DNA of 64,000 bases, taken from contig NZ_KQ948432.1 in assembly GCF_001514065.1 (NCBI RefSeq), forward strand, positions 265,632 through 329,631, in the 5' to 3' direction. Of this stretch, positions 3,148-54,518 are shown in pieces. Every line of letters starts with the position of its first letter. Within the stretch, counting starts at the first letter, position 1. Source of the stretch: Streptomyces antibioticus. GTDB lineage: Bacteria > Actinomycetota > Actinomycetes > Streptomycetales > Streptomycetaceae. A program made the position numbers and the translations under genes. Below the pieces are notes generated by a model that saw nothing but the letters and a program-made list of their open reading frames with translations, was not told the origin of the DNA and did not search any database.

Positions 3148-4647
3148 TCAGCTCTGGCCACCGGCGAGCTTCTCGCGAAGCGCGGCGAGCGCCTCGTCGG
3201 AAGCCAGCGCACCGGAGGTGTCCGCACCCTCGGAGGAGTACGAACCGCCACCGCCCGCGGCCGGAGCCGCACCGGCGGCGTCGCCACCCTCGGCGGCAGC
3301 GGCCTCGTCGGCCTCGCGGGACTTGATGACCTGCTTCTGGTGCTGCTCGAAGCGGGTCTGCGCCTCCGCGTACTGCTGCTCCCACGTCTCGCGCTGGGTC
3401 TCGTAGCCCTCGAGCCAGTCGTTGGTCTCGGGGTCGAAGCCCTCGGGGTAGATGTAGTTGCCCTGGTCGTCGTACGAGGCAGCCATGCCGTACAGGGTCG
3501 GGTCGAACTCGACCGAGGCCGGGTCGGCACCGAAGGACTCGTTGGCCTGCTTCAGCGAGAGGCTGATGCGACGACGCTCGAGGTCGATGTCGATGACCTT
3601 GACGAAGATCTCGTCGTTGACCTGGACGACCTGCTCCGGGATCTCCACGTGGCGCTCGGCCAGCTCGGAGATGTGGACCAGACCCTCGATGCCCTCGTCC
3701 ACGCGGACGAACGCACCGAACGGAACCAGCTTGGTGACCTTACCCGGGACGACCTGACCGATCTGGTGCGTGCGGGCGAACTGCTGCCACGGGTCCTCCT
3801 GCGTCGCCTTCAGCGACAGGGAGACACGCTCGCGGTCCATGTCGACGTCGAGGACCTCGACGGTGACTTCCTGGCCGACCTCGACAACCTCGGACGGGTG
3901 GTCGATGTGCTTCCAGGACAGCTCGGAGACGTGGACCAGACCGTCGACGCCACCCAGGTCCACGAAGGCACCGAAGTTGACGATCGAGGAGACCACACCG
4001 GAGCGGACCTGACCCTTCTGGAGGGTCGTGAGGAACGTCTGGCGGACCTCGGACTGGGTCTGCTCCAGCCAGGCACGGCGGGACAGGACCACGTTGTTGC
4101 GGTTCTTGTCCAGCTCGATGATCTTCGCCTCGAGCTCCTTGCCCACGTAGGGCTGGAGGTCGCGGACACGGCGCATCTCGACCAGGGAGGCCGGGAGGAA
4201 GCCGCGGAGGCCGATGTCGAGGATGAGACCACCCTTGACGACCTCGATGACGGTACCGGTGACGATGCCGTCCTCTTCCTTGATCTTCTCGATGGTGCCC
4301 CAGGCACGCTCGTACTGGGCGCGCTTCTTCGAGAGGATCAGGCGGCCTTCCTTGTCCTCCTTCTGGAGAACAAGGGCTTCGATCTCGTCACCGACGGCGA
4401 CGACCTCGTTGGGGTCGACATCGTGCTTGATCGAGAGCTCGCGGCTCGGGATGACACCTTCGGTCTTGTAACCGATGTCGAGCAGGACCTCGTCCCGGTC
4501 GACCTTCACGATGACGCCGTCGACGATGTCGCCGTCGTTGAAGTACTTGATCGTCTCGTCGATCGCGGCGAGGAAGGCTTCCTCGTTACCGATGTCGTTG
4601 ACCGCAACCTGCGGGGTGGTGGCGGTGGTCTCGGTGCTGCTCGTCAT
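3148..4647 (-). CDS. rpsA: 30S ribosomal protein S1
   Basis: RNA-binding ribosomal protein that helps load structured mRNAs on the 30S subunit. The 499 residues contain four S1 OB-fold repeats (about 35-105, 123-190, 208-278 and 295-365). The last two are the best conserved (VNFGAFVDLGGVDGLVHVSEL and VPFGAFVRVDEGIEGLVHIS). They are followed by an acidic, Gln/Glu-rich and Ala/Gly-rich tail. Actinobacteria have four repeats instead of the six of E. coli. ATG 4647 is preceded by GGAG at about 10 bases; the 29 further upstream codons are leader. It is transcribed from its own promoter near 4860 through a leader of nearly 200 nt. Confidence 0.97.
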   Translation of the reverse strand: MTSSTETTATTPQVAVNDIGNEEAFLAAIDETIKYFNDGDIVDGVIVKVDRDEVLLDIGYKTEGVIPSRELSIKHDVDPNEVVAVGDEIEALVLQKEDKEGRLILSKKRAQYERAWGTIEKIKEEDGIVTGTVIEVVKGGLILDIGLRGFLPASLVEMRRVRDLQPYVGKELEAKIIELDKNRNNVVLSRRAWLEQTQSEVRQTFLTTLQKGQVRSGVVSSIVNFGAFVDLGGVDGLVHVSELSWKHIDHPSEVVEVGQEVTVEVLDVDMDRERVSLSLKATQEDPWQQFARTHQIGQVVPGKVTKLVPFGAFVRVDEGIEGLVHISELAERHVEIPEQVVQVNDEIFVKVIDIDLERRRISLSLKQANESFGADPASVEFDPTLYGMAASYDDQGNYIYPEGFDPETNDWLEGYETQRETWEQQYAEAQTRFEQHQKQVIKSREADEAAAAEGGDAAGAAPAAGGGGSYSSEGADTSGALASDEALAALREKLAGGQS

Positions 4648-4846
4648 GTGGGAAAGGGCTCCGGTTACGGACAGAAAGTCGTAGGTACTGCTACGCCGGG
4701 AGCCCGTATCGCTCTGATGAAGCCGGACAGCCAAGGAAGCGCCAAACCAGAAACTGGTGATGGCGCCTCGACAACCGAGGGGACATACAACAGATGCGAG
4801 CGCAGCCTGCTACGTCTGAGGTGCGCAGGCCCGCAGCGCAACTTGT

Positions 4847-16331: not shown

Positions 16332-16840
16332 GCCCCCGATCCTGCCACGCCCCACTGACAGTCGTGCCACGCCGCGGGAGGCCGCCGCGGACGGCTGGTA
16401 CGTCAGGTCGGCGGAGGGCGAGGGACGCGGGCCTTGCCGAGGGGCGACGGAAGAGAGGGGCGGGGCTTGCCCGCGGGCGGCAGCAGGGCAGGCGGACAGC
16501 GCCGTGGGCGACAGCGAGGCACGTGGACGATGCCAGAGGCGGCAGTGGGGCAGGCGGACGATGCCGGGGGCGGCGGTCAGGGCGCTCGGGCCACCCCGGG
16601 GGCCGTGCACAGGGCGCCCGCCCCAGCCACCAGGGCTCGCGCCCACACGGCGGGCCGTAGCCACGGACAAGTAAGCCCCGGCCGAAGCCCCCGAACCGCC
16701 CCCGTTGCCCCTTCCGCAACCATTGCTCAATACGCAACCATGGGTTCCGTCCTCCCCGCGCCCCGGCGACCATCACTGTCGGTGTTGCGTGCGAGGATCG
16801 GAGACGTAGTTCACATGTGCATGCGAAGGAGAACGCCGCG
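16332..16840. other. 509-bp intergenic region between polA and the fdhF-like gene
   Basis: No convincing gene. Between about 16460 and 16600 the sequence is made of degenerate GC-rich blocks such as GGGGCAGGCGGAC(A/G) and GATGCC(A/G)G(A/G)GGCGGC, which look like decayed tandem duplications. The right end (16700-16840) drops in GC and should contain the promoter and operator of the oxidoreductase gene. Confidence 0.6.
16715..16741. promoter_or_regulatory. possible operator: direct repeat CGCAACCAT
   Basis: CGCAACCAT occurs at 16715-16723 and 16733-16741, start-to-start distance 18 bp. Between the copies the sequence TTGCTCAATACGCAA contains the inverted pair TTGC/GCAA. It lies 100 bp upstream of the oxidoreductase gene in the least GC-rich part of the gap, which suggests a protein-binding site. 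The regulator is unknown. Confidence 0.35.
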
Positions 16841-42151: not shown

Positions 42152-42196
42152 GCTCGTAGAGTGGAAACGGGTTCTCGGCGTCTTGGGGGTACGGTC

Positions 42197-43078
42197 GTGG
42201 CGAACGACGGACCGGTCGAGCACGGGTATCCGCATCTGGAGACGGTGCGGGCCTCGATCACCGCGCTGTGGAAACGGCTGTCGTACGACACCGTCCAGAC
42301 CTTCGCGACCAGTGTGGCCCCGGCGGACGTGGCGTTCTGCGACACCGACGATCTCCATCTGGGGGCGCAGCGGGTGGCGCGCGAGATGGTGCGGCACTAC
42401 CGGCTCCCGGATGCGCGGATGATCGTCGGCTTCCGTGACATGACGCATGCGGCGAATGTCGAACTCGCCGCCGGGCCCGAGTACTTCGTCGAACTCAACG
42501 ACCGGTTCCGCACGCATCGGCGGGACATCGGGGCGGCGCTCGCGCACGAGGTGATGCATGTGTATCTGCACCGCCTCGGGCTGTCCTTCCCGGGGACCCG
42601 GGACAACGAGATCCTCACGGACACGGCGGCGACTTACCTGGGTGCCGGGTGGCTGCTCCTTGACGCGTACCGGGAGGACTCCGCGTCCTCGCAGAAGCTC
42701 GGGTATCTGACGCCGGAGGAGTTCGGGTACGTGCTCGCCAAGCGGTCGCTGGTGTTCGGGGAGGACCCGTCGGTGTGGTTCACCAGTCCGCAGGCCTACA
42801 CCGCGTATGTGAAGGGGATGGCGCGGGCGCGGGAGGACGAGCAGCAGCCGCCGCTGACCGCGGCGGGGTGGGCGGGACGGCGGCGGTACGCGCGGGAGCG
42901 GAAGCACGCGGCGACCGCGCCGGCCGGGGTGCCGTACGCGTTCAGTCCGGACGGGGGCGGGCAGCTGCGGGTGTCCTTTCCCTGCCCGACCTGCCATCAG
43001 AAGATCCGGGTGCCGGTGCGGGGGCGGATGCGGGCGCGGTGCGGGGTGTGCCGGACGGTGCTGGAGTGCGACACGTAG
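42197..43078 (+). CDS. putative zinc metallopeptidase with C-terminal zinc ribbon
   Basis: 293 residues. HEVMHVYLHRLGL (117-129) is an HExxH zincin-like motif, and DNEILTDTAATYLGAGWLLL downstream could give the third ligand. The C-terminus, CPTCHQKIRVPVRGRMRARCGVC, is a four-Cys zinc ribbon. No signal peptide or membrane helix. The peptidase-like motif plus the ribbon suggests a nucleic-acid- or protein-associated hydrolase, but I know no characterised member. Start GTG 42197 is preceded by GGGGGT. It lies 45 bp after the GH35 gene on the same strand and may be co-transcribed with it. Confidence 0.7.
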   Translation: MANDGPVEHGYPHLETVRASITALWKRLSYDTVQTFATSVAPADVAFCDTDDLHLGAQRVAREMVRHYRLPDARMIVGFRDMTHAANVELAAGPEYFVELNDRFRTHRRDIGAALAHEVMHVYLHRLGLSFPGTRDNEILTDTAATYLGAGWLLLDAYREDSASSQKLGYLTPEEFGYVLAKRSLVFGEDPSVWFTSPQAYTAYVKGMARAREDEQQPPLTAAGWAGRRRYARERKHAATAPAGVPYAFSPDGGGQLRVSFPCPTCHQKIRVPVRGRMRARCGVCRTVLECDT

Positions 43079-43104: not shown

Positions 43105-44010
43105 CTACGCCCCGTAGACCGCCCCCGGCGACTCGGCGCGCGCGAGCAGCTTCCGTACGGTGTCCCCGACTTCGTCCGGGTCCCAGCGCGCCCCCTTGTC
43201 GGCGCTCGGGCCTGCCCGCCAGCCCTCCATGACGGTGACCCGGCCGCCCTCCGTCTCGAAGACCCGCCCGGTGACGCCCTCGCTCGCCGCCGAGCCCAGC
43301 CAGACCACGAGCGGCGAGACGTTCTCGGGGGCCATCGCGTCGAACCCGGCCGTGGGCGCCGCCATCGTCTCGGCGAAGGTCCGTTCCGTCATCCGGGTCC
43401 GGGCCGCGGGCGCGATCGCGTTCACCTGGACGCCGTAGCGGGCGAGTTCGGCGGCGGCGACCAGCGTCAGCCCGACGATCCCGGCCTTCGCGGCGCTGTA
43501 GTTGCCCTGCCCCAGCGAGCCCAACAGCCCGGCTCCGCTACTGGTGTTGACGATCCGGGCCACCGGCGTACGACCCGCCTTCGCCTCGCTCCTCCAGTGC
43601 GCCGCCGCGTGCTTCAGCGGGAGGAAGTGGCCTTTCAGATGGACCCGCAGCACCGCGTCCCAGTCGTCCTCGTCGAGGTTCACCAGCATCCGGTCGCGCA
43701 GGAAACCGGCGTTGTTGACCAGGGTGTCGAGGCGGCCGTACGTCTCCACGGCGGCCGCGATCAGGCTCCGCGCGCCTTCGGTCGTCGCGATGTCGCCGCC
43801 GTGCGCCACCGCCTCGCCGCCCGCCGCGCGGATCTCCGCCACGACCTGTGCCGCCGGGCTGTCGGCGCCGGGCGTGCCGTCGAGCCCCACGCCGAGGTCG
43901 TTGACCACGACCCGCGCCCCCTGAGCCGCGAACGCCAGCGCATGGGCGCGGCCGAGACCCCGCCCCGCCCCGGTGACGACGACGACCCGGCCGTCGCAGA
44001 TTGCGCTCAT
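43105..44010 (-). CDS. SDR-family dehydrogenase, Rv3548c-like (HIP cluster)
   Basis: 301 residues. NAD(P) motif TGAGRGLGRAHALAFAAQGA, NNAG in LDTLVNNAGFLRDRML, and the catalytic Ser...Tyr-x-x-x-Lys in NTSSGAGLLGSLGQGNYSAAKAG. The VVVNDLGVG start and the long C-terminus resemble 17-beta-HSD4/FabG-type enzymes acting on CoA esters. The position next to a second SDR and divergent from echA20 matches Rv3548c-Rv3549c of the KstR2 regulon. Exact substrate unknown. One base separates it from the upstream SDR stop, so the two are an operon. Confidence 0.85.
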   Translation of the reverse strand: MSAICDGRVVVVTGAGRGLGRAHALAFAAQGARVVVNDLGVGLDGTPGADSPAAQVVAEIRAAGGEAVAHGGDIATTEGARSLIAAAVETYGRLDTLVNNAGFLRDRMLVNLDEDDWDAVLRVHLKGHFLPLKHAAAHWRSEAKAGRTPVARIVNTSSGAGLLGSLGQGNYSAAKAGIVGLTLVAAAELARYGVQVNAIAPAARTRMTERTFAETMAAPTAGFDAMAPENVSPLVVWLGSAASEGVTGRVFETEGGRVTVMEGWRAGPSADKGARWDPDEVGDTVRKLLARAESPGAVYGA

Positions 44011-44011
44011 C

Positions 44012-44752
44012 TCACGTCTCCTTGTTGGCAGTTGCGGCGTCCAGGAACAGCGGCCGCTCCCCGCCTCCGTGCACCAGGAGCGAGGCCCCGCTGAGGTACG
44101 CGGCGGCGTCCGAGGCGAGGAACACGGCTGCGGCGCCGACGTCGGACGGCTCGGCCAGGCGCCCGAGCGGGACGGTGCGCGCGACGGCGTCGACCGCCTG
44201 CTCGTCGCCGTAGTGCAGGTGGGCGAGTTCGGTGCGGACCATGCCGACGACCAGGGTGTTGACCCGGACGTCCGGCGCCCACTCCACCGCCATCGAGCGG
44301 GCGAGGTTCTCCAGCCCGGCCTTCGCCGCCCCGTACGCGGCCGATCCGGGCGAGGGGCGGCTGCCGCTGACGCTGCCGACCATGACGACGGAGCCCTTCG
44401 CGCGCCGGAGATGGTCGTGGGCGGCGAGGGAAACGGTCAGCGGGGCCAGGAGGTTGAGCTCGATCACGCGCGCGTGCCGTGCCGCGTCCGCGTCGGCGAG
44501 CAGCCGGTAGGGACCGCCGCCCGCGTTGTTGACGAGCACGTCGACGCGGGGCAGGGCGGCGAAGAAGGCGTGCACGGCGTCGTGGTCTCGGACGTCGAGG
44601 AGCTTGAACTCCGCGCCCCTGGGCGGGACTTCGGGTGGTCGGCGGGCGCAGATCACGACCTCGGCGCCCGCCTCCGCCAAGGAGCGCGCGATCCCGGCGC
44701 CCACGCCCCGGGTTCCTCCCGTGACGACGGCGACCCTCCCCTTCAGCTCCAT
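44012..44752 (-). CDS. SDR-family dehydrogenase, Rv3549c-like (HIP cluster)
   Basis: 246 residues of classical SDR type. VTGGTRGVGAGIARSLAEAGAEVVICARR, VDVLVNNAGGGPYRLL, and the catalytic pair GSVSGSRPSPGSAAYGAAKAG, then a C-terminal SGASLLVHGGGE. First gene of a two-gene minus-strand operon, starting 17 bp from a KstR2-type operator shared with echA20. By position it corresponds to Rv3549c. The substrate is probably a CoA thioester from steroid ring C/D breakdown, an inference from context. Confidence 0.85.
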   Translation of the reverse strand: MELKGRVAVVTGGTRGVGAGIARSLAEAGAEVVICARRPPEVPPRGAEFKLLDVRDHDAVHAFFAALPRVDVLVNNAGGGPYRLLADADAARHARVIELNLLAPLTVSLAAHDHLRRAKGSVVMVGSVSGSRPSPGSAAYGAAKAGLENLARSMAVEWAPDVRVNTLVVGMVRTELAHLHYGDEQAVDAVARTVPLGRLAEPSDVGAAAVFLASDAAAYLSGASLLVHGGGERPLFLDAATANKET

Positions 44753-44768
44753 TCGCCGCTACCCTCCA

Positions 44769-44788
44769 CCTAACAAACGTTTGGTGGA
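44769..44788. promoter_or_regulatory. KstR2-like operator between the SDR operon and echA20
   Basis: CCTAACAAACGTTTGGTGGA, centred on the perfect palindrome CAAACGTTTG (44774-44783). It matches the site at 50761-50780 (read on the other strand) at 16 of 20 positions and resembles the mycobacterial KstR2 box AnCAAGnnCTTGnT, with two departures in the core. Confidence 0.75.
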
Positions 44789-44806
44789 AAGGTAGCTGAT
44801 GCTTCC

Positions 44807-45565
44807 ATGGGTGTCTCCACCTCATCCGAGGAAAAAGGGATTCGGGGAACCGGGATCTCCGTCGTCACGGTCGACTTCCCGCCGGTGAACGCCCTTCCGG
44901 TGGACGGCTGGTACGCGCTGGCCGACGCCGTGCGCACCGCCGGCCGCGACCCGGGGACGCGCTGTGTGGTGCTGGCCGCCGAGGGGCGGGGGTTCAACGC
45001 GGGCGTCGACATCAAGGAGCTCCAGGCGCGAGGCGCGGACGCCCTGGTCGGGGTCAACCGCGGGTGCTTCGAGGCCTTTTCGGCGGTGTACGAGTGCGAG
45101 GTGCCGGTGGTCGCGGCCGTGCAGGGCTTCTGTCTGGGCGGTGGGATCGGGCTGGTCGGGAACGCGGACGTGATCGTGGCGAGCGAGGACGCCACCTTCG
45201 GGCTGCCCGAGCTGGACCGGGGCGCCCTGGGCGCGGCCACCCATCTGGCCCGGCTGGTCCCCCAACACCTGATGCGCGCCCTGTACTTCACCTCGGGAAC
45301 TGTCACGGCGGCCGAGCTGCATGCGCACGGGTCGGTGTGGGCGGTCGTGCCGCGCGAGGAACTGCTCGACGCGGCACTGGAGTTGGCGCGGGACATCGCC
45401 GCCAAGGACGGGGAGCTGCTGCGCCTCGCCAAGGCCGCCATCAACGGCATCGACCCGGTCGACGTCCGCCGCAGCTACCGCTTCGAGCAGGGGTTCACGT
45501 TCGAGGCGAGCGTGAGCGGGGTCGCGGACCGGGTGCGGAGCAGGTTCGGGAAGGGTGATTCCTAG
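44807..45565 (+). CDS. echA20: EchA20-like hydrolase of the crotonase family
   Basis: 252 residues of the crotonase fold: FPPVNALPVDGWYALADAVR, an oxyanion loop in LAAEGRGFNAGVDIKELQARG, VAAVQGFCLGGGIGLVGNADVIVASEDATFGLPEL. In M. tuberculosis EchA20 opens steroid ring D of HIEC-CoA by hydrolysis; the same role is inferred here from cluster match. First gene of a plus-strand operon echA20-ipdA-ipdB-ipdC, about 19 bp from the KstR2-like operator. Its stop is directly followed by the ipdA GTG. ATG 44807 chosen; no better start is present. Confidence 0.85.
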   Translation: MGVSTSSEEKGIRGTGISVVTVDFPPVNALPVDGWYALADAVRTAGRDPGTRCVVLAAEGRGFNAGVDIKELQARGADALVGVNRGCFEAFSAVYECEVPVVAAVQGFCLGGGIGLVGNADVIVASEDATFGLPELDRGALGAATHLARLVPQHLMRALYFTSGTVTAAELHAHGSVWAVVPREELLDAALELARDIAAKDGELLRLAKAAINGIDPVDVRRSYRFEQGFTFEASVSGVADRVRSRFGKGDS

Positions 45566-46372
45566 GTGACCGACAAGACCATGACCGCCGACGAGGCCGT
45601 CTCCCGGCTGGAGAGCGGCATGACCCTGGGCATCGGCGGCTGGGGTTCCCGCCGCAAGCCGATGGAGCTGGTGCGGGCACTGCTGCGCACCGGCGTCACC
45701 GACCTCACCGTCGTCTCGTACGGCGGCCCCGACGTCGGCATGCTCGCCGCCGCCGGACGTCTGCGCGCACTCGTCGCCCCCTTCGTCACCCTCGACTCGA
45801 TCCCCCTCGAACCGAACTACCGGGCCGCCCGTGAGAGCGGCGCCTTCGACCTGACGGAGATCGACGAGGCGATGTTCATGTGGGGACTGCACGCGGCCGC
45901 CAACCGGCTGCCGTTCCTGCCCGTGCGGGCCGGTCTCGGCTCGGACGTCATGCGGGTCAACCCCGGCCTGCGGACGGTGACTTCGCCGTACGACGACGGC
46001 GAGACGTTCGTCGCCGTGCCCGCCCTGCGGCTCGACGCGGCCCTGGTCCACGTCAACCGCGCCGACCGGCGGGGCAACGGGCAGTACCTGGGCCCGGACC
46101 CGTACTTCGACGACCTGTTCTGCGAGGCGGCCGACGCGGCGTACGTCTCCTGCGAACGGATCGTCGAGACGGCCGAGTTCGCGAAGGAGGGACCACCCCA
46201 GTCGTTGCTGCTCAAACGGCACGTGGTGACAGGAGTCGTCGAGGCGCCGGGCGGCGCGCACTTCACGTCCTGCGTACCCGACTACGGCCGCGACGAGGAC
46301 GCCCAGCGCGCGTACGCGACCACCCCCTGGCCGGAGTTCGCCGCGCAGTACCTCGACGGGAGGACGGCATGA
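45566..46372 (+). CDS. ipdA: IpdA, alpha subunit of the COCHEA-CoA hydrolase
   Basis: 268 residues of the family I CoA-transferase fold. MTLGIGGWGSRRKPMELVRALL, LTVVSYGGPDVGMLAAAG, FDLTEIDEAMFMWGLHAAANRLPFLPV, DAALVHVNRADRRGNGQYLG. IpdAB looks like a CoA transferase but in mycobacteria and rhodococci hydrolyses the last carbocyclic ring in COCHEA-CoA; a Glu such as the one in IDEAMFMWG is the likely catalytic residue. GTG 45566 is adjacent to the echA20 stop, and the stop overlaps ipdB (ATGA). Confidence 0.88.
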   Translation: MTDKTMTADEAVSRLESGMTLGIGGWGSRRKPMELVRALLRTGVTDLTVVSYGGPDVGMLAAAGRLRALVAPFVTLDSIPLEPNYRAARESGAFDLTEIDEAMFMWGLHAAANRLPFLPVRAGLGSDVMRVNPGLRTVTSPYDDGETFVAVPALRLDAALVHVNRADRRGNGQYLGPDPYFDDLFCEAADAAYVSCERIVETAEFAKEGPPQSLLLKRHVVTGVVEAPGGAHFTSCVPDYGRDEDAQRAYATTPWPEFAAQYLDGRTA

Positions 46373-47085
46373 CCGCGACCCGCGCCGAGTACTGCGTGAT
46401 CGCCTGCGCCGAGGCCTGGCGCGACGCGGGCGAGATCCTCGCGAGCCCCATGGGCCTGATCCCCTCCGTGGGCGCCCGGCTGGCCCGCCTCACCTTCGCA
46501 CCGGACCTGCTCCTGACCGACGGCGAGGCGATGATCGTGGACGCCGAGGGCACCGCCGAGGGCTGGCTGCCGTACCGGCAGCATCTGGCCTTCGTCACCG
46601 GCGGGCGGCGGCACGTGATGATGGGGGCCGGCCAGATCGACCGGTACGGCAACCAGAACATCTCCTGCATCGGCGACTGGGAGCGTCCGAAACGGCAGCT
46701 GCTGGGGGTGCGGGGAGCGCCGGTCAACACCCTGAACAACCCGACGAGTTACTGGGTGCCGAAGCACTCCCGGCGGGTGTTCGTGGAGAAGGTCGACATG
46801 GTGTGCGGGGTGGGGTACGACCATGCCGCCGGCGCCCGTCACCACCGCATCCCCCGGGTCGTCTCCGACCTCGGCGTCTTCGACTTCGCGACGCCGGACC
46901 ACTCGATGCGACTGGCCTCGCTGCACCCCGGGGTGACGGTCGAGCAGGTGACGCAGGCGACGGGCTTCGCACTCACCATCCCCTCCGAGGTGCCCTGCAC
47001 CCGCGAACCGACCCCCCAGGAACTGAAGTTGATCCGCGAGGTGCTCGACCCGGCCGGCGCCCGCGCCAGGGAGGTCGCCGTCTGA
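46369..47085 (+). CDS. ipdB: IpdB, beta subunit of the COCHEA-CoA hydrolase
   Basis: 238 residues, second half of the CoA-transferase-fold heterodimer: ILASPMGLIPSVGARLARL, RRHVMMGAGQIDRYGNQNISCIGDWERPKRQLLGVRGAPVNTLNN, FVEKVDMVCGVGYDHAAG. The pairing with ipdA, 4-bp overlap and position before ipdC are the same as in the KstR2 regulon. Cytoplasmic. GGGAGG precedes ATG 46369. Confidence 0.88.
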   Translation: MTATRAEYCVIACAEAWRDAGEILASPMGLIPSVGARLARLTFAPDLLLTDGEAMIVDAEGTAEGWLPYRQHLAFVTGGRRHVMMGAGQIDRYGNQNISCIGDWERPKRQLLGVRGAPVNTLNNPTSYWVPKHSRRVFVEKVDMVCGVGYDHAAGARHHRIPRVVSDLGVFDFATPDHSMRLASLHPGVTVEQVTQATGFALTIPSEVPCTREPTPQELKLIREVLDPAGARAREVAV

Positions 47086-48134
47086 TGGACACGGCACTGA
47101 CCCGGCTCCTCGGGGTCCGCCATCCGATCGTGCAGACCGGGATGGGCTGGGTCGCGGGCCCCCGCCTGGTGTCGGCCACGGCGAACGCGGGCGCGCTGGG
47201 CATCCTGGCCTCCGCGACGATGACGCTCGACCAGCTGCGGGACGCGATACGGGAGGTCAAGTCCCGTACGGACGCACCATTCGGCGTGAATCTGCGGGCG
47301 GACGCGGCGGACGCCGACGAGCGCGTGTCGATCATGCTCGCCGAGGGCGTCCGGGTGGCGTCCTTCGCGCTGGCGCCCTCCCCCGACCTGATCGCCAGGC
47401 TCAAGGCGGCGGACGTCGTCGTCATCCCGTCCGTCGGGGCCCGCCGCCATGCCGAGAAGGTCGCGGCATGGGGAGCGGACGCGCTGATCGTGCAGGGCGG
47501 CGAGGGCGGCGGGCACACCGGCGACGTGGCGACGACCGTGCTGCTCCCCCAGGTGGTCGACGCGGTCGGCATCCCGGTCGTCGCGGCGGGCGGCTTCTTC
47601 GACGGGCGCGGGCTGGTCGCGGCGCTGGCGTACGGGGCGGCGGGCGTGGCGATGGGGACGCGGTTCCTGCTGACGTCGGACTCGACGGTGCCGGACGCGG
47701 TGAAGCAGCGCTATCTCGCGGCCGGGGTCAAGGACGTGACGGTGACCCGCGCGGTGGACGGACTGCCGCACCGGATGCTGCGCACGGACCTGGTGGCCTC
47801 TCTGGAGAGCTCCGGCCGCGCGAGGACCCTGTTGCGCGCGGTCCGCCACGCGACCGGCTTCCGCCGTCTCTCCGGCCTGTCCTGGCGCTGGATGCTGCAC
47901 GACGGCCTCGCCATGAAGCACGGCAGGGATCTCACCTGGAGCCAGGTGCTGCTCGCCGCCAACACGCCGATGCTGCTCAGGTCGGCGATGGTGGACGGCC
48001 GTACGGACCTCGGGGTGATGGCCTCGGGGCAGGTCGCCGGGGTGATCGACGACCTGCCGTCGTGCGCGGAGCTGGTGGGGCGGATCATGAAGGAGGCCGA
48101 GGAGGTCATCTCCGGCCTCCCCGGCACACCCTGA
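47085..48134 (+). CDS. ipdC: IpdC-like flavin-dependent oxidoreductase (nitronate monooxygenase family)
   Basis: 349 residues forming an FMN TIM barrel: VRHPIVQTGMGWVAGPRLVSATANAGALGILAS, KAADVVVIPSVGARRHAEKVAAWGADALIVQGGEGGGHTG, IPVVAAGGFFDGRGLVAALAYGAAGVAMGTRFLLT. Automatic annotation would call it a 2-nitropropane dioxygenase. Its place after ipdAB identifies it as IpdC, required for steroid ring C/D breakdown. The ATG overlaps the ipdB stop by one base (TGATG). Last gene of the operon; it ends 3 bp from the convergent fadA6. Confidence 0.87.
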   Translation: MDTALTRLLGVRHPIVQTGMGWVAGPRLVSATANAGALGILASATMTLDQLRDAIREVKSRTDAPFGVNLRADAADADERVSIMLAEGVRVASFALAPSPDLIARLKAADVVVIPSVGARRHAEKVAAWGADALIVQGGEGGGHTGDVATTVLLPQVVDAVGIPVVAAGGFFDGRGLVAALAYGAAGVAMGTRFLLTSDSTVPDAVKQRYLAAGVKDVTVTRAVDGLPHRMLRTDLVASLESSGRARTLLRAVRHATGFRRLSGLSWRWMLHDGLAMKHGRDLTWSQVLLAANTPMLLRSAMVDGRTDLGVMASGQVAGVIDDLPSCAELVGRIMKEAEEVISGLPGTP

Positions 48135-48137
48135 CCC

Positions 48138-49295
48138 TCAGAGCCTCTCGATGATCGTCACGTTGGCCTGTCCGCCGCCCTCGCACATGGTCTGCAACCC
48201 GAACCGCCCGCCCGTGCGCTCCAGTTCATGCAGCAGGGTCGTCATCAGCTTCACGCCGGTCGCCCCGAGCGGATGCCCCAGCGCGATCGCGCCGCCGTTG
48301 ACGTTGACCTTCTCCGGGTCGGCGCCCGTCTCCTTCAGCCACGCCAGCACCACCGGTGCGAAGGCCTCGTTGATCTCGACGAGGTCGATGGCGTCGATGG
48401 ACAGGCCGGTCTTCTTCAGGGCGTGGGCGGTGGCCGGGATGGGCGCGGTGAGCATACGGATGGGGTCCTCGCCGCGGACGGACAGATGGTGCACGCGGGC
48501 GCGGGGCCGCAACCCGTGTTCCCGTACCGCCCGTTCGGAGGCCAGCAGCATCGCCGCCGCGCCGTCGGAGACCTGGGAGGAGCAGGCGGCCGTGACGGTG
48601 CCGCCCTCGACGACCGGCTTCAGCCCGGCCATCTTCTCCAGCGAGGTGTCCCGGCGCGGCCCCTCGTCGACGGCCACGTCCCCGTACGCCACGGTCTCCC
48701 GCGTGAAACGTCCCTCGTCGATCGCCCGTACCGCCCGCTGATGGGAGCGCAGCGCGAACTCCTCCTGGTCCTGCCTGCTGATCCCCCACTTCGCGGCGAT
48801 CATCTCGGCGCCGACGAACTGGTTCACCGACTTGCCCGCGTACCGCGCCTGCCAGCCCTCGCTGCCCGCGAACGGCCCCTGCGTCAGCCCGAGCGGCTCG
48901 GCGGCCTGCCGGGTCGCGAAGGCGATCGGGATCATCGACATGTTCTGCACGCCACCGGCGACGACGAGGTCCTGCGTCCCGGACAGCACGCCCTGCGCCG
49001 CGAAGTGCACGGCCTGCTGGGAGGAGCCGCACTGCCGGTCCACGGTCACGCCCGGCACCTCCTCGGGCAGCCCGGCCGCCAGCCACGCGGTCCGCGCGAT
49101 GTCCCCGGCCTGCGGCCCCACCGCGTCCAGACATCCGAAGACGACGTCCTCGACGGCGGCCGGATCGACCCCGGCCCGCCCGACGAGTTCCTTGAGCACA
49201 TGCGCGCCCAGGTCGGCCGGATGGACCCCGCTGAGCCCTCCCTTGCGCCGCCCGACGGGCGTCCGCACCGCTTCGACGATGTAGGCCTCGGCCAT
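48138..49295 (-). CDS. fadA6: acetyl-CoA acyltransferase, FadA6-like thiolase
   Basis: 385 residues of the thiolase family. Nucleophile Cys 89 in VDRQCGSSQQAVHFAAQG, NEAFAPVVLAWLKE, GGAIALGHPLGATGVKL and the second Cys in LQTMCEGGGQANVTI. Cleaves beta-ketoacyl-CoA; in the HIP pathway FadA6 releases the last units after ring opening. ATG 49295 follows GGGAG at 5 bases. It is the third gene of the minus-strand unit ipdF-kstR2-fadA6 (36 bp after the regulator), the order seen in mycobacteria. Confidence 0.88.
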   Translation of the reverse strand: MAEAYIVEAVRTPVGRRKGGLSGVHPADLGAHVLKELVGRAGVDPAAVEDVVFGCLDAVGPQAGDIARTAWLAAGLPEEVPGVTVDRQCGSSQQAVHFAAQGVLSGTQDLVVAGGVQNMSMIPIAFATRQAAEPLGLTQGPFAGSEGWQARYAGKSVNQFVGAEMIAAKWGISRQDQEEFALRSHQRAVRAIDEGRFTRETVAYGDVAVDEGPRRDTSLEKMAGLKPVVEGGTVTAACSSQVSDGAAAMLLASERAVREHGLRPRARVHHLSVRGEDPIRMLTAPIPATAHALKKTGLSIDAIDLVEINEAFAPVVLAWLKETGADPEKVNVNGGAIALGHPLGATGVKLMTTLLHELERTGGRFGLQTMCEGGGQANVTIIERL

Positions 49296-49331
49296 GACAA
49301 CTCCCTTGACTGAAAGGGCACTTGATAGGGG

Positions 49332-49943
49332 CTATTCGCGTACGGCGATCCCGTCCAGCACCATCGACAGGTACTGCCGGGCGATCTCCTCCGGGCTGTG
49401 CTGTCCGCCGGGCCGGTACCAGGACGCGGCGACCCAGACGGTGTCGCGCACGAAGCGGTACGTCAGCCGCATGTCGAGGTCGGCCCGGAAGACCCGGGCG
49501 GCGACCCCGCGTTCCAGCGTGGACAGCCACGCCTTCTCGAACCTGCGCTGCGACTCGGCGAGGAACCCGAACCTCTCCTGCGCGACGAGCTGCTTGCTCT
49601 CCTTCTGGTAGATCGCGACGGCGGCGCGGTGCCGGTCGATCTCCCGGAACGACTCGGTGACGAGGGCTTCGAGGGTCTCGCGCGGGTCCGACTCGGCCGC
49701 CAGGACGGTGTCGTAGCCCGCCCAGAGCTCGTCGAGGAAGGTCCGCAGGATCTCCTCCAGCATCGATTCCTTGGAGTCGAAGTGGTAGTAGAGGCTGCCT
49801 GCGAGCATGCCCGCGTGGTCCGCGATCTTGCGGACGGTGGTGGCGTTGTAGCCCTGTTCGGCGAAGACCTCGGCGGCGGTGTCGAGGATTTCGCGCCGCC
49901 GGGCGGGGGCGGCGGTCACCTGGGGCTTCTTCTTGGTCGGCAC
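49332..49943 (-). CDS. kstR2: TetR-family regulator, KstR2-like
   Basis: 203 residues. The N-terminal HTH is RREILDTAAEVFAEQGYNATTVRKIADHAGMLAGSLYYHFDSKESML, with the GSLYYHF signature of the KstR2 branch, then a helical ligand-binding domain with EIDRHRAAVAIYQKESKQLV and AASWYRPGGQHSPEEIARQYLSMVLDGI. KstR2 represses the HIP genes and is released by HIP-CoA. Here it lies inside the cluster between an ipdF-like SDR and fadA6, and two matching operators occur nearby. Starts at GTG 49943. Confidence 0.85.
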   Translation of the reverse strand: MPTKKKPQVTAAPARRREILDTAAEVFAEQGYNATTVRKIADHAGMLAGSLYYHFDSKESMLEEILRTFLDELWAGYDTVLAAESDPRETLEALVTESFREIDRHRAAVAIYQKESKQLVAQERFGFLAESQRRFEKAWLSTLERGVAARVFRADLDMRLTYRFVRDTVWVAASWYRPGGQHSPEEIARQYLSMVLDGIAVRE

Positions 49944-49958
49944 GCGTCCATTGTCGTC

Positions 49959-50747
49959 CTACGGGTGCTGGGAGCTGACGGGGACGATCTCTCCGGTCAT
50001 GTACGACGAGTAGCCCGACGCCAGGAACACGATCACGTTGGCCACCTCCCAGGGCTCGGCGTACCGCCCGAACGCCTCCCGCGCGGTCAGCTCCTCCAGG
50101 AGCTCCGCCGACGTCACCTTCACGAGGTGCGGGTGCATGGCGAGGCTCGGCGCGACCGCGTTGACGCGCACCCCGAACGCGGCGGCCTCGATCGCCGCGC
50201 ACCGGGTCAGCGCCATCACGCCGGCCTTCGCGGCGGCGTAGTGCGCCTGCCCGGCCTGGGCGCGCCAGCCGACGACGGAGGAGTTGTTGACGATGACACC
50301 GCCCGCCCCCTGCGACCGGAGGAGCCGCAGCGCCGCCCGCGTGCACCGGAAGGTCCCGTTCAGCGTCACGTCCAGCACCCGCGACCACTGCTCGTCGCTC
50401 ATGTCGACGAGGTCCGACGTCCCGCCGAGCCCCGCGTTGTTGACGACGACGTCGAGCCGGCCGTGCTCCCGCACCGCGGCCTCGAACAACGCCGTCACCT
50501 GCGCCTCGTCGGTGACATCGCACGGTACGGCCGTCACCGCGCCCGGGAACTCCCGGCTCAGCTCGGCCTCGTACTCCTTGAGCCGGCGCACATGCGCGTC
50601 GCTGACGAGCACGCGCGCGCCCTCCTCCAGGAAGCGCCGCGCGGTCGCCCCGCCGATCCCGGCGCCGGCCGCGGCGGTGATGACGGCGGTGCGGCCCTTC
50701 AGCAGCCCGTGCCCCGGCTCGTACACCGGACTCTCGACGCCTGTCAT
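49959..50747 (-). CDS. ipdF: SDR-family dehydrogenase, IpdF-like
   Basis: 262 residues. TAAAGAGIGGATARRFLEEGARVLVSDAH (NAD(P) site), LDVVVNNAGLGGTSDLVDMSDEQW, and SSVVGWRAQAGQAHYAAAKAG (catalytic Ser/Tyr/Lys). IpdF of mycobacteria and rhodococci oxidises 5-hydroxy-HIP-CoA. This call rests on position upstream of kstR2 (as Rv3559c) and SDR type. First gene of the ipdF-kstR2-fadA6 unit, starting 13 bp from the second operator. Its final residues GEIVPVSSQHP are unusual but harmless. Confidence 0.82.
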   Translation of the reverse strand: MTGVESPVYEPGHGLLKGRTAVITAAAGAGIGGATARRFLEEGARVLVSDAHVRRLKEYEAELSREFPGAVTAVPCDVTDEAQVTALFEAAVREHGRLDVVVNNAGLGGTSDLVDMSDEQWSRVLDVTLNGTFRCTRAALRLLRSQGAGGVIVNNSSVVGWRAQAGQAHYAAAKAGVMALTRCAAIEAAAFGVRVNAVAPSLAMHPHLVKVTSAELLEELTAREAFGRYAEPWEVANVIVFLASGYSSYMTGEIVPVSSQHP

Positions 50748-50760
50748 GGGGGCACGCTAA

Positions 50761-50780
50761 CCTACCAAACACTTGTTAGG
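50761..50780. promoter_or_regulatory. KstR2-like operator between ipdF and the acyl-CoA dehydrogenase genes
   Basis: CCTACCAAACACTTGTTAGG. The core ACCAAACACTTGTT agrees with the mycobacterial KstR2 box AnCAAGnnCTTGnT except for one base. It is the mirror-oriented twin of the site at 44769-44788 and lies in the 60-bp gap between divergent genes, where a repressor could silence both. Confidence 0.78.
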
Positions 50781-50807
50781 GAAGTTCGGTGGCGGGAGGG
50801 TTCGGCG

Positions 50808-51947
50808 ATGGATCTCGCGTTCACGCCCGGGGAGCAGGCGTTCCGGGAGGAGGCCGGGGCGTGGCTCGCGGCCCACGTCCCGGCCGCTCCGCTGCCCTCC
50901 CTGGAGACCGCGGAGGGCTTCGCGGCCCATCGCGCGTGGGAGGCCGAACTGGCCGCGGACCGCTGGTCGGTGGTCGACTGGCCGGCGGCGTACGGCGGGC
51001 GGGACGCGGGGCTGGTGCGCTGGCTGCTGTTCGAGGAGGAGTACTGGGCGGCGGGCGCGCCGGGCCGGGTCGGGCAGAACGGGATCAGCCTGCTCGCGCC
51101 GACGCTCTTCGACCACGGCACGGAGGAGCAGCGGGCGCGGGTGCTGCCGCCGATGGCTCGCGGGGAGGTGGTGTGGGCGCAGGCGTGGTCCGAGCCGGAG
51201 GCGGGTTCCGATCTGGCGTCGCTGCGCTCGAAGGCGGTGCGTACGGACGGGGGTTGGCTGCTGAGCGGCCAGAAGACGTGGTCGTCCCGGGCCGCGTTCG
51301 CGGACCGCGCCTTCGGCCTGTTCCGCAGCGATCCGGACACCCCGAAGCCCCATCAGGGCCTGACGTACCTGATGTTCGACCTGCGGGCGCCCGGTGTCAC
51401 GGTCCGCCCGATCGCCCGGCTCGACGGCAAGCCGGCGTTCGCCGAGCTGTTCCTCGACGAGGTGTTCGTGCCGGACGCGGATGTGATCGGGGAGCCGGGT
51501 CAGGGCTGGCGGATCGCGATGGCGGCGACGGGCAACGAACGCGGGCTCACGCTCCGCTCCCCCGGCCGCTATCTGGCGGCGGCGGACCGGCTGCACGCCC
51601 TGTGGCGCGGGCAGGGCAGCCCGGACGCCCTGCGGACCCGGGTCGCCGACGCGCTGATCGGCGCCCGCGCCTACCAGCTGTTCACCTACACCGCCGCCTC
51701 CCGCTTCCTCGACGGTGCCCCCCTCGGCCCGGAGTCCAGCCTGAACAAGGTCTTCTGGTCGGAGTACGACATCGCGCTCACCGAGACCGCCCTCGATCTG
51801 CTCGGCGCGGAGGGCGAGTTGGCGGACACGGAGTGGGCGGAGCGGTACGTCTTCGCCCTGGCCGGTCCGATCTACGCGGGGACGAACGAGATCCAGCGGG
51901 ACATCATCGCCGAGCGCCTGCTGGGCCTGCCGAAGGGACGACGCTGA
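50808..51947 (+). CDS. acyl-CoA dehydrogenase, large subunit type (FadE30-like)
   Basis: 379 residues, FAD enzyme. WPAAYGGRDAGLVRWLLFEEEYWAAGAPG, WAQAWSEPEAGSDLASLRSKAVR (FAD/substrate loop), WLLSGQKTWSSRAAFADRAFGLFR and IYAGTNEIQRDIIAERLLGLPKG at the C-terminus. Steroid-type dehydrogenases often work as alpha2beta2 heterotetramers, and the next gene looks like the partner. A role in dehydrogenating HIP-CoA or a later intermediate is inferred from the cluster. GGGAGGG lies 10 bases before ATG 50808. Confidence 0.85.
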   Translation: MDLAFTPGEQAFREEAGAWLAAHVPAAPLPSLETAEGFAAHRAWEAELAADRWSVVDWPAAYGGRDAGLVRWLLFEEEYWAAGAPGRVGQNGISLLAPTLFDHGTEEQRARVLPPMARGEVVWAQAWSEPEAGSDLASLRSKAVRTDGGWLLSGQKTWSSRAAFADRAFGLFRSDPDTPKPHQGLTYLMFDLRAPGVTVRPIARLDGKPAFAELFLDEVFVPDADVIGEPGQGWRIAMAATGNERGLTLRSPGRYLAAADRLHALWRGQGSPDALRTRVADALIGARAYQLFTYTAASRFLDGAPLGPESSLNKVFWSEYDIALTETALDLLGAEGELADTEWAERYVFALAGPIYAGTNEIQRDIIAERLLGLPKGRR

Positions 51948-52894
51948 TGCGGCTGGTGCTCGACGACGAACAGCGGGCGTTCACCGGCGCGTTGGAGAAG
52001 ATGCTGGCCGGCGCGGACACCCCGTCCGTCGTACGGGAGTGGAGTCACGGCGCGCACGGGAGCGGGCGCGCCCTGTGGGGCCGGCTCGCTGCGGCCGGCG
52101 TGTTCGCGCTGGCCGCCCCCGAGGAGTACGGCGGCTTCGGCGTCCGTCCGGTCGAACTCGCCCTGGCCTTCATGGCATTGGGGCGCCATGTCGTCCCCGG
52201 CCCGCTCGTCGAGACCGTCGCCGCCGCCGTACTCCTGCCCACTCCCAACCTCGTCAAGCGGCTCGTGTCGGGAGAGACCCTGGCGACGGTGGCGTACGGC
52301 GGCCCGTACGCCCTCGACGGCGACGCGGCCGACCTCCGTCTCGTCCTCGCCCCCGGCGGCCTGCACACCGCCACCGGCCACGGCCCGGTCCGCCCGTCCC
52401 TCGACCCGGCCCGGCGGCTGACGACCCTCACTCCGGGCGACCTCCTCACCACCGAGCCACCCCTCGCGCAAGCCCTCCTCCTGGCCCGCCTCACCACCGC
52501 GGCCCAGGCCCTGGGCGTCGGTCTCGCCCTCCTCGACCGCACGGTCTCCTACGTCAGGCAGCGCACCCAGTTCGGCGTCCCCGTCGGCTCGTTCCAGGCC
52601 GTCAAGCACCAACTGGCCGACGCGCGGACCGCGTTGGAGTTCGCCCGGCCCCTCGTGCTCGCCGCCGCCCTCACCCTGGACCCGGCCGACGTCGCCGCCG
52701 CCAAGGTCACGGCCTGCGAGGCGGCGTACGCGACCGCCCGCACCGCCCTCCAGTTGCACGGCGCGATCGGCTACACGGCGGAGTACGACCTGTCCCTGTG
52801 GCTGACCAAGGCCCGCGCCCTGCGCACGGCCTGGGGCAGCCCCGAGGAGTGCCGGGACACGGTCCTCCTCAGTGCTGGTGATCCCCACTGCTGA
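51947..52894 (+). CDS. acyl-CoA dehydrogenase, short partner subunit
   Basis: 315 residues, shorter than a full acyl-CoA dehydrogenase (about 380). AAPEEYGGFGVRPVELALAFMALGRHVVPGPLVE, YVRQRTQFGVPVGSFQAVKHQLADARTALE and LQLHGAIGYTAEYDLSLWLTKARALR. The central beta domain is truncated (about 120-185), as in the beta subunits of steroid heterotetrameric dehydrogenases. TGATG overlap with the preceding gene supports an obligate pair. Its last 26 bp overlap the convergent qcrB-like gene. Confidence 0.83.
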   Translation: MRLVLDDEQRAFTGALEKMLAGADTPSVVREWSHGAHGSGRALWGRLAAAGVFALAAPEEYGGFGVRPVELALAFMALGRHVVPGPLVETVAAAVLLPTPNLVKRLVSGETLATVAYGGPYALDGDAADLRLVLAPGGLHTATGHGPVRPSLDPARRLTTLTPGDLLTTEPPLAQALLLARLTTAAQALGVGLALLDRTVSYVRQRTQFGVPVGSFQAVKHQLADARTALEFARPLVLAAALTLDPADVAAAKVTACEAAYATARTALQLHGAIGYTAEYDLSLWLTKARALRTAWGSPEECRDTVLLSAGDPHC

Positions 52895-54518
52895 TCTGCC
52901 GGTACTCCTCCACCGTCGGCTTCGGGATCCGTGTCTCCGGTCCGAACATCGCCCGCGCCAGCCGTGCCCGTACCCGCATGGAGGCGGTGACCGGGCGGCG
53001 GACGCCGTTGGCGTCGACGAGCGGGCCGAGCTCGTAGTGGCCGTTCTGTTCGTGCTGGGTGAGGGTGTGCAACTGCGCCTGCGCGAGCGGCTCGTGGACC
53101 TCGACGTACTCGCCGTGCGGCAGCCGCCTGATGATGCCGGACTCCCTGCCGTGCAGCACCTTGTCCCGGTCCCGGCGCTGGAGCCCGAGACAGACCCGTT
53201 TGGTGACGACGAAGGCGAGCACCGGCACCGCGAAGACAGCGATCCGTACGAACCAGGTGATCGCGTTGATGGACAGATGCAGATGCGTGGCCACGACGTC
53301 GTTGCCGCCGCCGATCAGCAGCACCACGTACAGGCTCAGCCAGGCCACGCCGAGGCCGGTGCGCACGGGCACGTTGCGCGGCCGGTCCAGGATGTGGTGC
53401 TCGCGTTTGTCGCCGGTGATCCAGGCCTCGATGAACGGATAGGCGCCGATGGCGGCCAGGATCAGCGGGAACAGCGAGAACGGGATGAAGACGCCCAACT
53501 GGAGCGTGTGACCCCAGGCGTTGATCTCCCATCCCGGCATCACCCGGATCAGCCCCTCGGAGAAGCCGAGGTACCAGTCGGGTTGGGCACCGGTGGTGAC
53601 GAGGTCGGGGCGGTACGGCCCGAAGGCCCACACGGGGTTGATCTGGGCGATGCCGCCCATGAACGCCAGCATGCCGAAGACCAGGAAGAAGAACCCGCCG
53701 GCCTTCGCCGTGTAGACGGGCAGCAGCGGCATGCCGACGACCGTCTTCTCGTCGCGGCCGGGCCCCGGGAACTGTGTGTGCTTGTGGTAGAAGACCAGGA
53801 TCAGATGCGCGGTCACCAGGCCCAGCATGATCCCGGGCAGCAGCAGGACATGGATGGGGAACAGCCGCGGGATGATGTCGTGCCCCGGGAACTCCCCGCC
53901 GAACAGGAAGAACGACAGATACGTGCCGACGATCGGCACCGACAGGATGGCGCCCTGCGCGAAGCGGATGCCGGTGCCGGACAGCAGGTCGTCGGGGAGC
54001 GAGTAGCCGGTGAGACCGGTGAGGATGCCGAGCATCAACAGGGTCCAGCCGAACACCCAGTTGACCTCGCGCGGCTTGCGGAAGGCGCCGGTGAAGAACA
54101 CCCGCATCATGTGCACGAGCATGCCGGTGACGAAGACCAGCGCCGCCCAGTGGTGGATCTGCCGGATCAGCAGCCCGCCGCGCACCTCGAAGCTGATGTC
54201 GAGCGTGGACTCGAACGCCCGGGTCATCACGACCCCGTTGAGGGGCTCGTAGGAGCCGTGGTAGACGACCTCGACGCCGCTCGGTTCGAAGAACAGGGTG
54301 AGATATATGCCGGTCAGGATGATGACGATGAAGCTGTAGAGGCAGATCTCGCCCAGCATGAAGGACGGATGGTCCGGGAACACCTTGCGCATGTTGGCCT
54401 TGGCCAGCCCGTACAGACCGAGCCGCCCGTCCGCCCAGTCGGCGAGCTTCTCGCCGCTGCCGGGCGGGCCCGAACTCCGGCCGCCCGTCCGTCCGTTCAC
54501 CGATCGCGCGCCGTCCAT
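52869..54518 (-). CDS. qcrB: cytochrome bc1 complex cytochrome b subunit, orphan paralogue
   Basis: 549 residues, full-length actinobacterial QcrB. LRLGLYGLAKANMRKVFPDHPSFMLGEICLYSF-type start, heme-b His pairs in RQIHHWAALVFVTGMLVHMMRVFF and FPIHVLLLPGIMLGLVTAHLILVFYHKHTQF, and the quinol-site segment GAQPDWYLGFSEGL (PDWY in place of PEWY). About eight or nine membrane helices and a cytoplasmic tail VEVHEPLAQAQLHTLTQHEQ. QcrA and QcrC are absent here, so this is a second, stand-alone copy. It overlaps the acyl-CoA dehydrogenase gene tail to tail by 26 bp. Confidence 0.93.
   Translation of the reverse strand: MDGARSVNGRTGGRSSGPPGSGEKLADWADGRLGLYGLAKANMRKVFPDHPSFMLGEICLYSFIVIILTGIYLTLFFEPSGVEVVYHGSYEPLNGVVMTRAFESTLDISFEVRGGLLIRQIHHWAALVFVTGMLVHMMRVFFTGAFRKPREVNWVFGWTLLMLGILTGLTGYSLPDDLLSGTGIRFAQGAILSVPIVGTYLSFFLFGGEFPGHDIIPRLFPIHVLLLPGIMLGLVTAHLILVFYHKHTQFPGPGRDEKTVVGMPLLPVYTAKAGGFFFLVFGMLAFMGGIAQINPVWAFGPYRPDLVTTGAQPDWYLGFSEGLIRVMPGWEINAWGHTLQLGVFIPFSLFPLILAAIGAYPFIEAWITGDKREHHILDRPRNVPVRTGLGVAWLSLYVVLLIGGGNDVVATHLHLSINAITWFVRIAVFAVPVLAFVVTKRVCLGLQRRDRDKVLHGRESGIIRRLPHGEYVEVHEPLAQAQLHTLTQHEQNGHYELGPLVDANGVRRPVTASMRVRARLARAMFGPETRIPKPTVEEYRQISSGDHQH

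Follow-up and report, generated by a model that had tools for sequence, protein, structure and literature searches.

The closest described systems are the KstR2 (HIP, steroid ring C/D) regulons of mycobacteria and of Rhodococcus jostii RHA1. As described in PMC3068626 and PMC5380842, these hold two short-chain dehydrogenase/reductase (SDR) genes, echA20, ipdABC, fadA6, kstR2, ipdF, fadE31 and fadE32 in a fixed order and strand, with palindromic operators at divergent promoters. For Streptomyces, degradation of HIP was already known in one streptomycete by its activity, with no genes known to us (1977 work of Hashimoto and Hayakawa, cited in PMC5380842), and in a survey of ring-degradation markers 55 of 57 genomes were reported to be without a steroid pathway (Bergstrand et al., PMC4810484). 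Here we describe a 64,000-nucleotide stretch of the Streptomyces antibioticus genome (hereafter the window) that carries, at positions 43105-52894, a cluster with the same genes in the same order and on the same strands, again with palindromic operators at divergent promoters. Compared with the known clusters, it has two operators instead of three, fadD3, fadE30 and fadE33 are not in it, and its genome is without KshA and HsaC orthologues. The cluster is probably the lower part of a conserved pathway split between two loci, which would take HIP, or a different polycyclic or bicyclic acid, as its substrate and would be entered without KshA or HsaC.

Gene content, operators and family placement

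The cluster comprises 11 closely packed genes (spacing of -4 to 60 bp), all with intact reading frames, which we picked by third-position GC content and afterwards by homology. The main comparison was with a named 20.8-kb locus of Mycolicibacterium moriokaense; the first ten genes were matched within that locus only, and the second acyl-CoA dehydrogenase was compared against the whole M. moriokaense genome. Each of the first ten genes has its syntenic counterpart as best match (51-69% identity), and the full set of 11 (45-69% identity) follows the mycobacterial KstR2 cluster in gene order and strand, an agreement that excludes chance. The features are as follows:

43105..44010, minus strand: SDR of the Rv3548c type (64% identity to the syntenic M. 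moriokaense gene; NCBIfam PRK07791, 500 bits against a cut-off of 373)
44012..44752, minus strand: SDR of the Rv3549c type (58% to the syntenic M. moriokaense gene; NCBIfam PRK07856, 371 bits, cut-off 255)
44770..44787, no strand: predicted KstR2-type operator palindrome, CTAACAAACGTTTGGTGG, in the 54-bp SDR/echA20 divergent promoter
44807..45565, plus strand: echA20, ring D hydrolase homologue (65% to M. moriokaense; NCBIfam PRK07938, 405.7 bits, cut-off 260)
45566..46372, plus strand: ipdA, homologue of the COCHEA-CoA hydrolase alpha subunit, GTG start (56% to M. moriokaense; 6co6_A, E 1.3e-92)
46369..47085, plus strand: ipdB, homologue of the COCHEA-CoA hydrolase beta subunit (53% to M. moriokaense; 6co6_B, E 6.9e-87)
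47085..48134, plus strand: ipdC, homologue of the flavin mononucleotide-type 5-OH-HIC-CoA reductase with a FabK/nitronate monooxygenase (NMO) fold (69% to M. moriokaense; Pfam NMO)
48138..49295, minus strand: fadA6 thiolase (65%, against 43% for the other thiolase of the locus; NCBIfam PRK07801, 697 bits, cut-off 591)
49332..49943, minus strand: kstR2, TetR repressor (51% to M. moriokaense; 2ibd, E 1.5e-66; KstR2 structures 4w97/4w1u, E 1e-56)
49959..50747, minus strand: ipdF, SDR (63%, against 35% for the next SDR of the locus; NCBIfam PRK07831, 445 bits, cut-off 336)
50762..50779, no strand: predicted KstR2-type operator palindrome, CTACCAAACACTTGTTAG, in the 60-bp ipdF/fadE31 divergent promoter
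50808..51947, plus strand: fadE31-type acyl-CoA dehydrogenase (61% to FadE31, 39% to FadE30)
51947..52894, plus strand: fadE32-type acyl-CoA dehydrogenase, MOODA-CoA dehydrogenase homologue (45-47% to FadE32, 36-38% to FadE33)

Judged from its sequence, this region is a true KstR2-type steroid ring C/D (HIP) cluster. The initial annotation had placed it in the ring C/D pathway, an assignment on which the 6co6 and 6con matches discussed below, the gene order, the operators and the neighbours all agree. It had also seen ten genes of the mycobacterial Rv3548c-Rv3560c neighbourhood: the families, coordinates and strands stand, by the syntenic best matches, but the genes number 11, and the acyl-CoA dehydrogenase genes in that span, although present, do not include FadE30 (Rv3560c), since they are FadE31 and FadE32. 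FadE33 was considered for the second of them and dropped because FadE32 scores above it. As had been anticipated, generic annotation would hide the pathway: in a scan of ten of the proteins NCBIfam left IpdB without a family and gave others labels like 'SDR', 'enoyl-CoA hydratase' or 'acetyl-CoA C-acetyltransferase'. The ipdC product falls under the NCBIfam FabK equivalog cut-off (251 against 453 bits), and the solved structure closest to the window KstR2, 2ibd, is titled 'possible transcriptional regulator'.

Both predicted operators are palindromes of 18 bp, one per divergent promoter. They differ by one to two changes from the KstR2 motif AnCAAGnnCTTGnT, for which gel-shift evidence has been reported (Kendall 2010, PMC3068626), and the ipdF/fadE31 site is near-identical to the Rv3560c/Rv3561 probe that the same paper used in an electrophoretic mobility shift assay (common part GCTAACCTACCAA-CACTTG). 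Across the whole genome, the operator pattern is matched with two or fewer mismatches at these two places only; with three or fewer, the count is 7 forward plus 8 reverse (the true sites counted), against 11 plus 8 for a reversed control pattern. All 20 of the further short clusters described below carry two KstR2-type sites each, and one of them (L145) has a third match; exact promoter placement was checked for the window, and the other loci were covered by scan.

Among solved structures, IpdA and IpdB are closest to 6co6 and 6con, with E values of 1e-92 to 1e-79. These two structures, labelled 'CoA-transferase' in the structure records, are IpdAB of RHA1 and of a mycobacterium; the best matches to true CoA-transferases (glutaconate and acetate CoA-transferases, ranked below 6co6 and 6con) are far weaker, at 7e-23 and 6e-19. 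Glu101 of IpdA, which corresponds to the catalytic glutamate of the alpha subunit, is kept (the aligned residue is Ala in chain 6coj). Gly52 of IpdB aligns with the glycine that stands in for the catalytic glutamate of CoA-transferases, a replacement that is one of two lines of evidence against IpdAB as a transferase (Crowe 2017, PMC5380842). On the 6co6 and 6con matches and the synteny to M. moriokaense, we rejected reading the ipd genes as ordinary CoA-transferase or nitronate monooxygenase genes. In a tree of EchA20, IpdA, IpdB and IpdC (37 loci, 1093 columns, built with no outgroup, so that CoA-transferase and NMO sequences are not in it), the window falls in a single Streptomyces clade (support 99). 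Under midpoint rooting that clade joins Rhodococcus, Nocardia and Mycobacterium (support 100). Of the KshA-positive congeners the tree covers three (G012, G074 and G076), all of them inside the Streptomyces clade. As a separate observation, an extra crotonase gene, about 30% identical to EchA20, lies near fadE31 in some ipd clusters (L155, L160, L136 and L139).

Absent genes and a second locus

Read gene by gene against the M. moriokaense and congener loci, the window cluster holds no fadD3, fadE30 or fadE33 (we take FadE30 to be IpdE1 and FadE33 to be IpdE2). The same three genes are missing from all 20 further KshA-negative clusters that we read, of which 15 have all eleven window genes in the same order and the other five have ten of the eleven, one SDR being undetected; these loci were picked among KshA-negative, IpdB-positive genomes with printed coordinates, and the sample leans to the window's cluster type.

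In the genome itself, listed as 99.98% complete, no orthologue was found of the two enzymes used as markers for opening rings A and B, KshA (best match 28%, E 7e-9) and HsaC (28%, E 4e-32); KstD, HsaA and HsaD were unmatched on a 95-kb stretch of contig C8, the whole genome not having been searched for these three. The lack of KshA and HsaC orthologues and the absence of fadD3, fadE30 and fadE33 from the cluster leave the known 9,10-seco sterol route unsupported, and a full sterol locus on C8, an early idea, was dropped once KshA and HsaC were not found. For the same reasons the claim of the initial annotation that the organism finishes the breakdown of sterols or bile acids is not supported; that part of it which allowed for an analogous bicyclic compound is compatible with the evidence, as is HIP itself.

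The best matches of the genome to FadE30 (55-59% identity) and to FadD3 (52-53%) both lie on contig C8, at about 247-289 kb, unlinked to the window, and the FadD3-like protein scores 807 bits against the NCBIfam FadD3-family cut-off of 657. The same interval encodes a second CoA ligase, a nucleoside diphosphate (NDP)-forming CoA ligase, an alpha/beta dehydrogenase pair, a FadE33-like dehydrogenase (33%), two Ltp-type thiolases and a ChsH2-type protein, together with two PF04909 amidohydrolases, a PF04199 cyclase, an SDR, an alcohol dehydrogenase and an enzyme resembling flavin-containing monooxygenases; a flavin reductase (HsaB-like), AraC and TetR regulators and, by eye, a major facilitator superfamily carrier complete it. 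The nearest solved relatives of the two amidohydrolases are DitZ (8uyr; E 6e-56 and 8e-59) and PtmU3 (6omp), which belong to one protein family with them by sequence but are distant. The dit genes serve abietane diterpenoid degradation and PtmU3 acts in platensimycin biosynthesis; the likeness may hint at a terpenoid context and is a lead only. Literature searches on DitZ turned up no paper on the enzyme.

Ten 40-kb neighbourhoods were picked among the C8-type FadE30 matches, one of them from a KshA-positive genome (G074). All ten hold the dehydrogenase pair, the cyclase, the SDR, FadE30, the alcohol dehydrogenase, the flavin reductase and the NDP-forming ligase; the first amidohydrolase and the ChsH2-type protein each occur in nine, an Ltp-type protein in eight and a FadE33-like protein in seven.

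Distribution and co-occurrence of the two loci

We sampled 80 of 392 genomes of the genus (G000-G079, our own included), calling IpdB strong at E 1e-46 or better, FadE30 below 1e-100 and the amidohydrolase at 1e-60, with presence calls read by hand. IpdB is strong in 59 of the 80; across all 392 genomes, 318 have some IpdB match, and about 278 are strong by hand count. In the IpdB-positive genomes whose region was read, KstR2-type operators accompany a conserved ring C/D cluster. Where no strong IpdB is present, several genomes (for example, G052, G053 and G065) have a distant IpdB-like homologue of the CoA-transferase beta subunit (E about 1e-17 to 1e-25).

KshA orthologues (56-58% identity) occur in five of the 80 genomes and HsaC orthologues (49-50%) in the same five only, all of them IpdB-positive; 54 of the 59 IpdB-positive genomes are without KshA. 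These five, in which KshA and HsaC accompany a ring C/D cluster, are G074 (L136-L137), G012 (L138-L139), G076 (L141), G070 (L217/L142) and G023 (L218), and in G074 and G076 the ksh/hsa/kstD and ipd genes share one region. Their full steroid loci have an ipd cluster of the same kind as the window; what sets them apart from the window genome is KshA, HsaC and a cluster-type fadE30. KshB, HsaA, HsaD and KstD were read in G070, G074 and G076, and KshB and HsaA in G023. On this gene content it is likely that the genus does contain true steroid degraders.

Co-occurrence was evaluated on the 77 genomes that are at least 90% complete. FadE30 is present in 58 of 59 IpdB-positive genomes (not in G032) and in none of 18 IpdB-negative ones. 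The first amidohydrolase is present in 57 of the 59 (not in G020, and in G073 only as a 57% paralogue, whose entry at the E 1e-60 cut-off raises the count to 58) and again in none of the 18; it is 85-96% identical in 58 of the 80 genomes, our own included. Sixty of the 80 genomes are FadE30-positive, 52 with the C8 type and eight with another type only (split by hand). Eight regions, picked because they hold this other type, were read for FadE30 placement: in all six KshA-negative genomes with the other type only, fadE30 lies inside the ipd cluster, beside ipdF, as in M. moriokaense, a placement which argues that FadE30 is supplied from one location or the other.

Beyond the genus, we sampled 197 genomes of the phylum, our own included. 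Nineteen of these have IpdB; the amidohydrolase occurs in 12 genomes, every one of them IpdB-positive; seven of the 12 belong to the window's genus and five more come from four other families. In genomes of other classes, an amidohydrolase of the first type stands divergent from fadE31 both in G518 (L197), where it is near the ipd genes, and in G490 (L210), where the ipd genes are on a different contig, and in G546 one of the second type lies near fadE31/32, together with an alpha/beta pair.

Elsewhere in the window, a QcrB-like cytochrome b gene (52869-54518, minus strand) is convergent with fadE32 and overlaps it by 26 bp, and core-type genes include one for an S1-domain (rpsA-like) protein at 3148-4734 and one for DNA polymerase I at 13605-16730. 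The frame at 42161-43078 (plus strand) encodes a protein of 305 amino acids with an HExxH-like motif and a zinc-ribbon look by eye, and no Pfam match.

A proposed two-locus pathway and its alternatives

The pathway that we favour would divide its labour between the loci. The C8 locus would supply side-chain activation and the first beta-oxidation through its FadD3-, FadE30- and FadE33-like proteins, and the window cluster would be a shortened form that starts from the ring-opening stage: EchA20 would hydrolyse ring D and IpdAB ring C, after which FadA6 and FadE31/32 would carry on, so that a HIC-CoA-like bicyclic thioester would be taken to central metabolites. The two loci would constitute one pathway, kept in about three-quarters of the genus. 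Because KshA and HsaC are absent, the natural substrate should not be a sterol cleaved through the 9,10-seco route; it would be HIP itself or a polycyclic or bicyclic acid that converges on HIP intermediates.

Several observations weigh against joining the loci in this way. The FadE33-like candidates on C8 are 33% identical to FadE33, and the FadD3-like gene was found in two of the ten neighbourhoods, most of which end short of its place, its wider distribution not having been searched. No KstR2-type operator was found on the C8 locus in the genome scan; co-regulation is thus not supported, and we rejected KstR2 control of that locus. Within the genus, co-occurrence reflects shared ancestry and the Fisher values are inflated by relatedness; five genomes are discordant (G020, G032 and G073, near complete, and G001 and G079, incomplete), and the first amidohydrolase and FadE30 are on separate contigs or more than 100 kb apart in at least 11 of 58 genomes (by hand). 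In the phylum sample, seven of the 19 IpdB-positive genomes are without the amidohydrolase (four of the seven being one genus of family f3), and in G408 the amidohydrolases are distant from the ipd genes. Both FadE30 types occur together in the KshA-positive genomes G012, G023 and G074, and the C8 type may therefore act on a different substrate; all five KshA-positive genomes also have the amidohydrolase, which makes the upper locus compatible with steroid degradation.

A bolder form of the two-locus pathway, which we advance tentatively and rate at somewhat less than even, concerns what enters it. Most Streptomyces, and some other actinobacterial classes, might have an undescribed upper pathway independent of KshA and HsaC, in which DitZ-like hydrolases, paired acyl-CoA dehydrogenases and Ltp/ChsH2-type aldolases would feed a widespread polycyclic terpenoid or steroid-like acid to the ring C/D enzymes. 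If this is true, HIP-type degradation would be a general end route of polycyclic terpenoids and not specific to steroids. The open-licence literature on Streptomyces IpdAB, KstR2, FadE30 and EchA20, on steroid and HIP degradation and on steroid metagenomes yielded no description of a conserved two-locus pathway in Streptomyces.

The strongest alternative, though an unlikely one, is that the organism scavenges HIP released by other soil steroid degraders. It would take up HIP, activate it with the C8 FadD3, remove the side chain with the FadE30- and FadE33-like proteins and complete the breakdown with the window cluster, while the remaining C8 genes would have some other function. The FadD3-, FadE30- and FadE33-like genes do stand together on C8; moreover, the streptomycete of the 1977 work grew on HIP and accumulated MOODA, and the effector of KstR2 is HIP-CoA (both from PMC5380842). 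Scavenging leaves unexplained, however, why the distribution of a DitZ-like amidohydrolase follows that of IpdB about as closely as that of FadE30, and why, in three genomes from other classes, an amidohydrolase is located near fadE31 or the ipd genes.

It is less probable again that the loci are unrelated, both consisting of old core genes of the genus that were lost together in reduced lineages. Both do look vertically conserved, the ipd tree has one Streptomyces clade, and the loci have no operator in common; but the association also appears in the five genomes from four other families of the phylum, the genes are physically close in G518, G490 and G546, and the placement of fadE30 is complementary.

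That the organism is an ordinary steroid degrader, finishing sterols or bile acids through the canonical 9,10-seco pathway, we regard as very improbable. The ring C/D cluster is genuine, and five congeners combine KshA, HsaC and IpdB, two of them (G074 and G076) with ksh/hsa/kstD and ipd in one region; the genome examined here, however, has neither a KshA nor an HsaC orthologue despite its completeness (KstD, HsaA and HsaD having been sought on C8 and not genome-wide), and PMC4810484 finds 55 of 57 Streptomyces without a steroid pathway. That we see what remains of a steroid cluster in decay, with fadD3, fadE30 and fadE33 already lost, is scarcely credible: the cluster does have three genes fewer than those of the KshA-positive congeners, and one SDR went undetected in five of the 20 further clusters, but its 11 frames are intact, its gene order recurs in full in 15 of those genomes and with ten of eleven genes in the remainder, and its operators are retained.

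The marker survey called 55 of 57 Streptomyces free of a steroid pathway (PMC4810484), yet about three-quarters of the genomes sampled here carry IpdB. Either streptomycetes consume HIP from other bacteria on a large scale, or the ring C/D enzymes are used for a different class of abundant natural products; both alternatives would alter what ipd genes signify in genomes and metagenomes.

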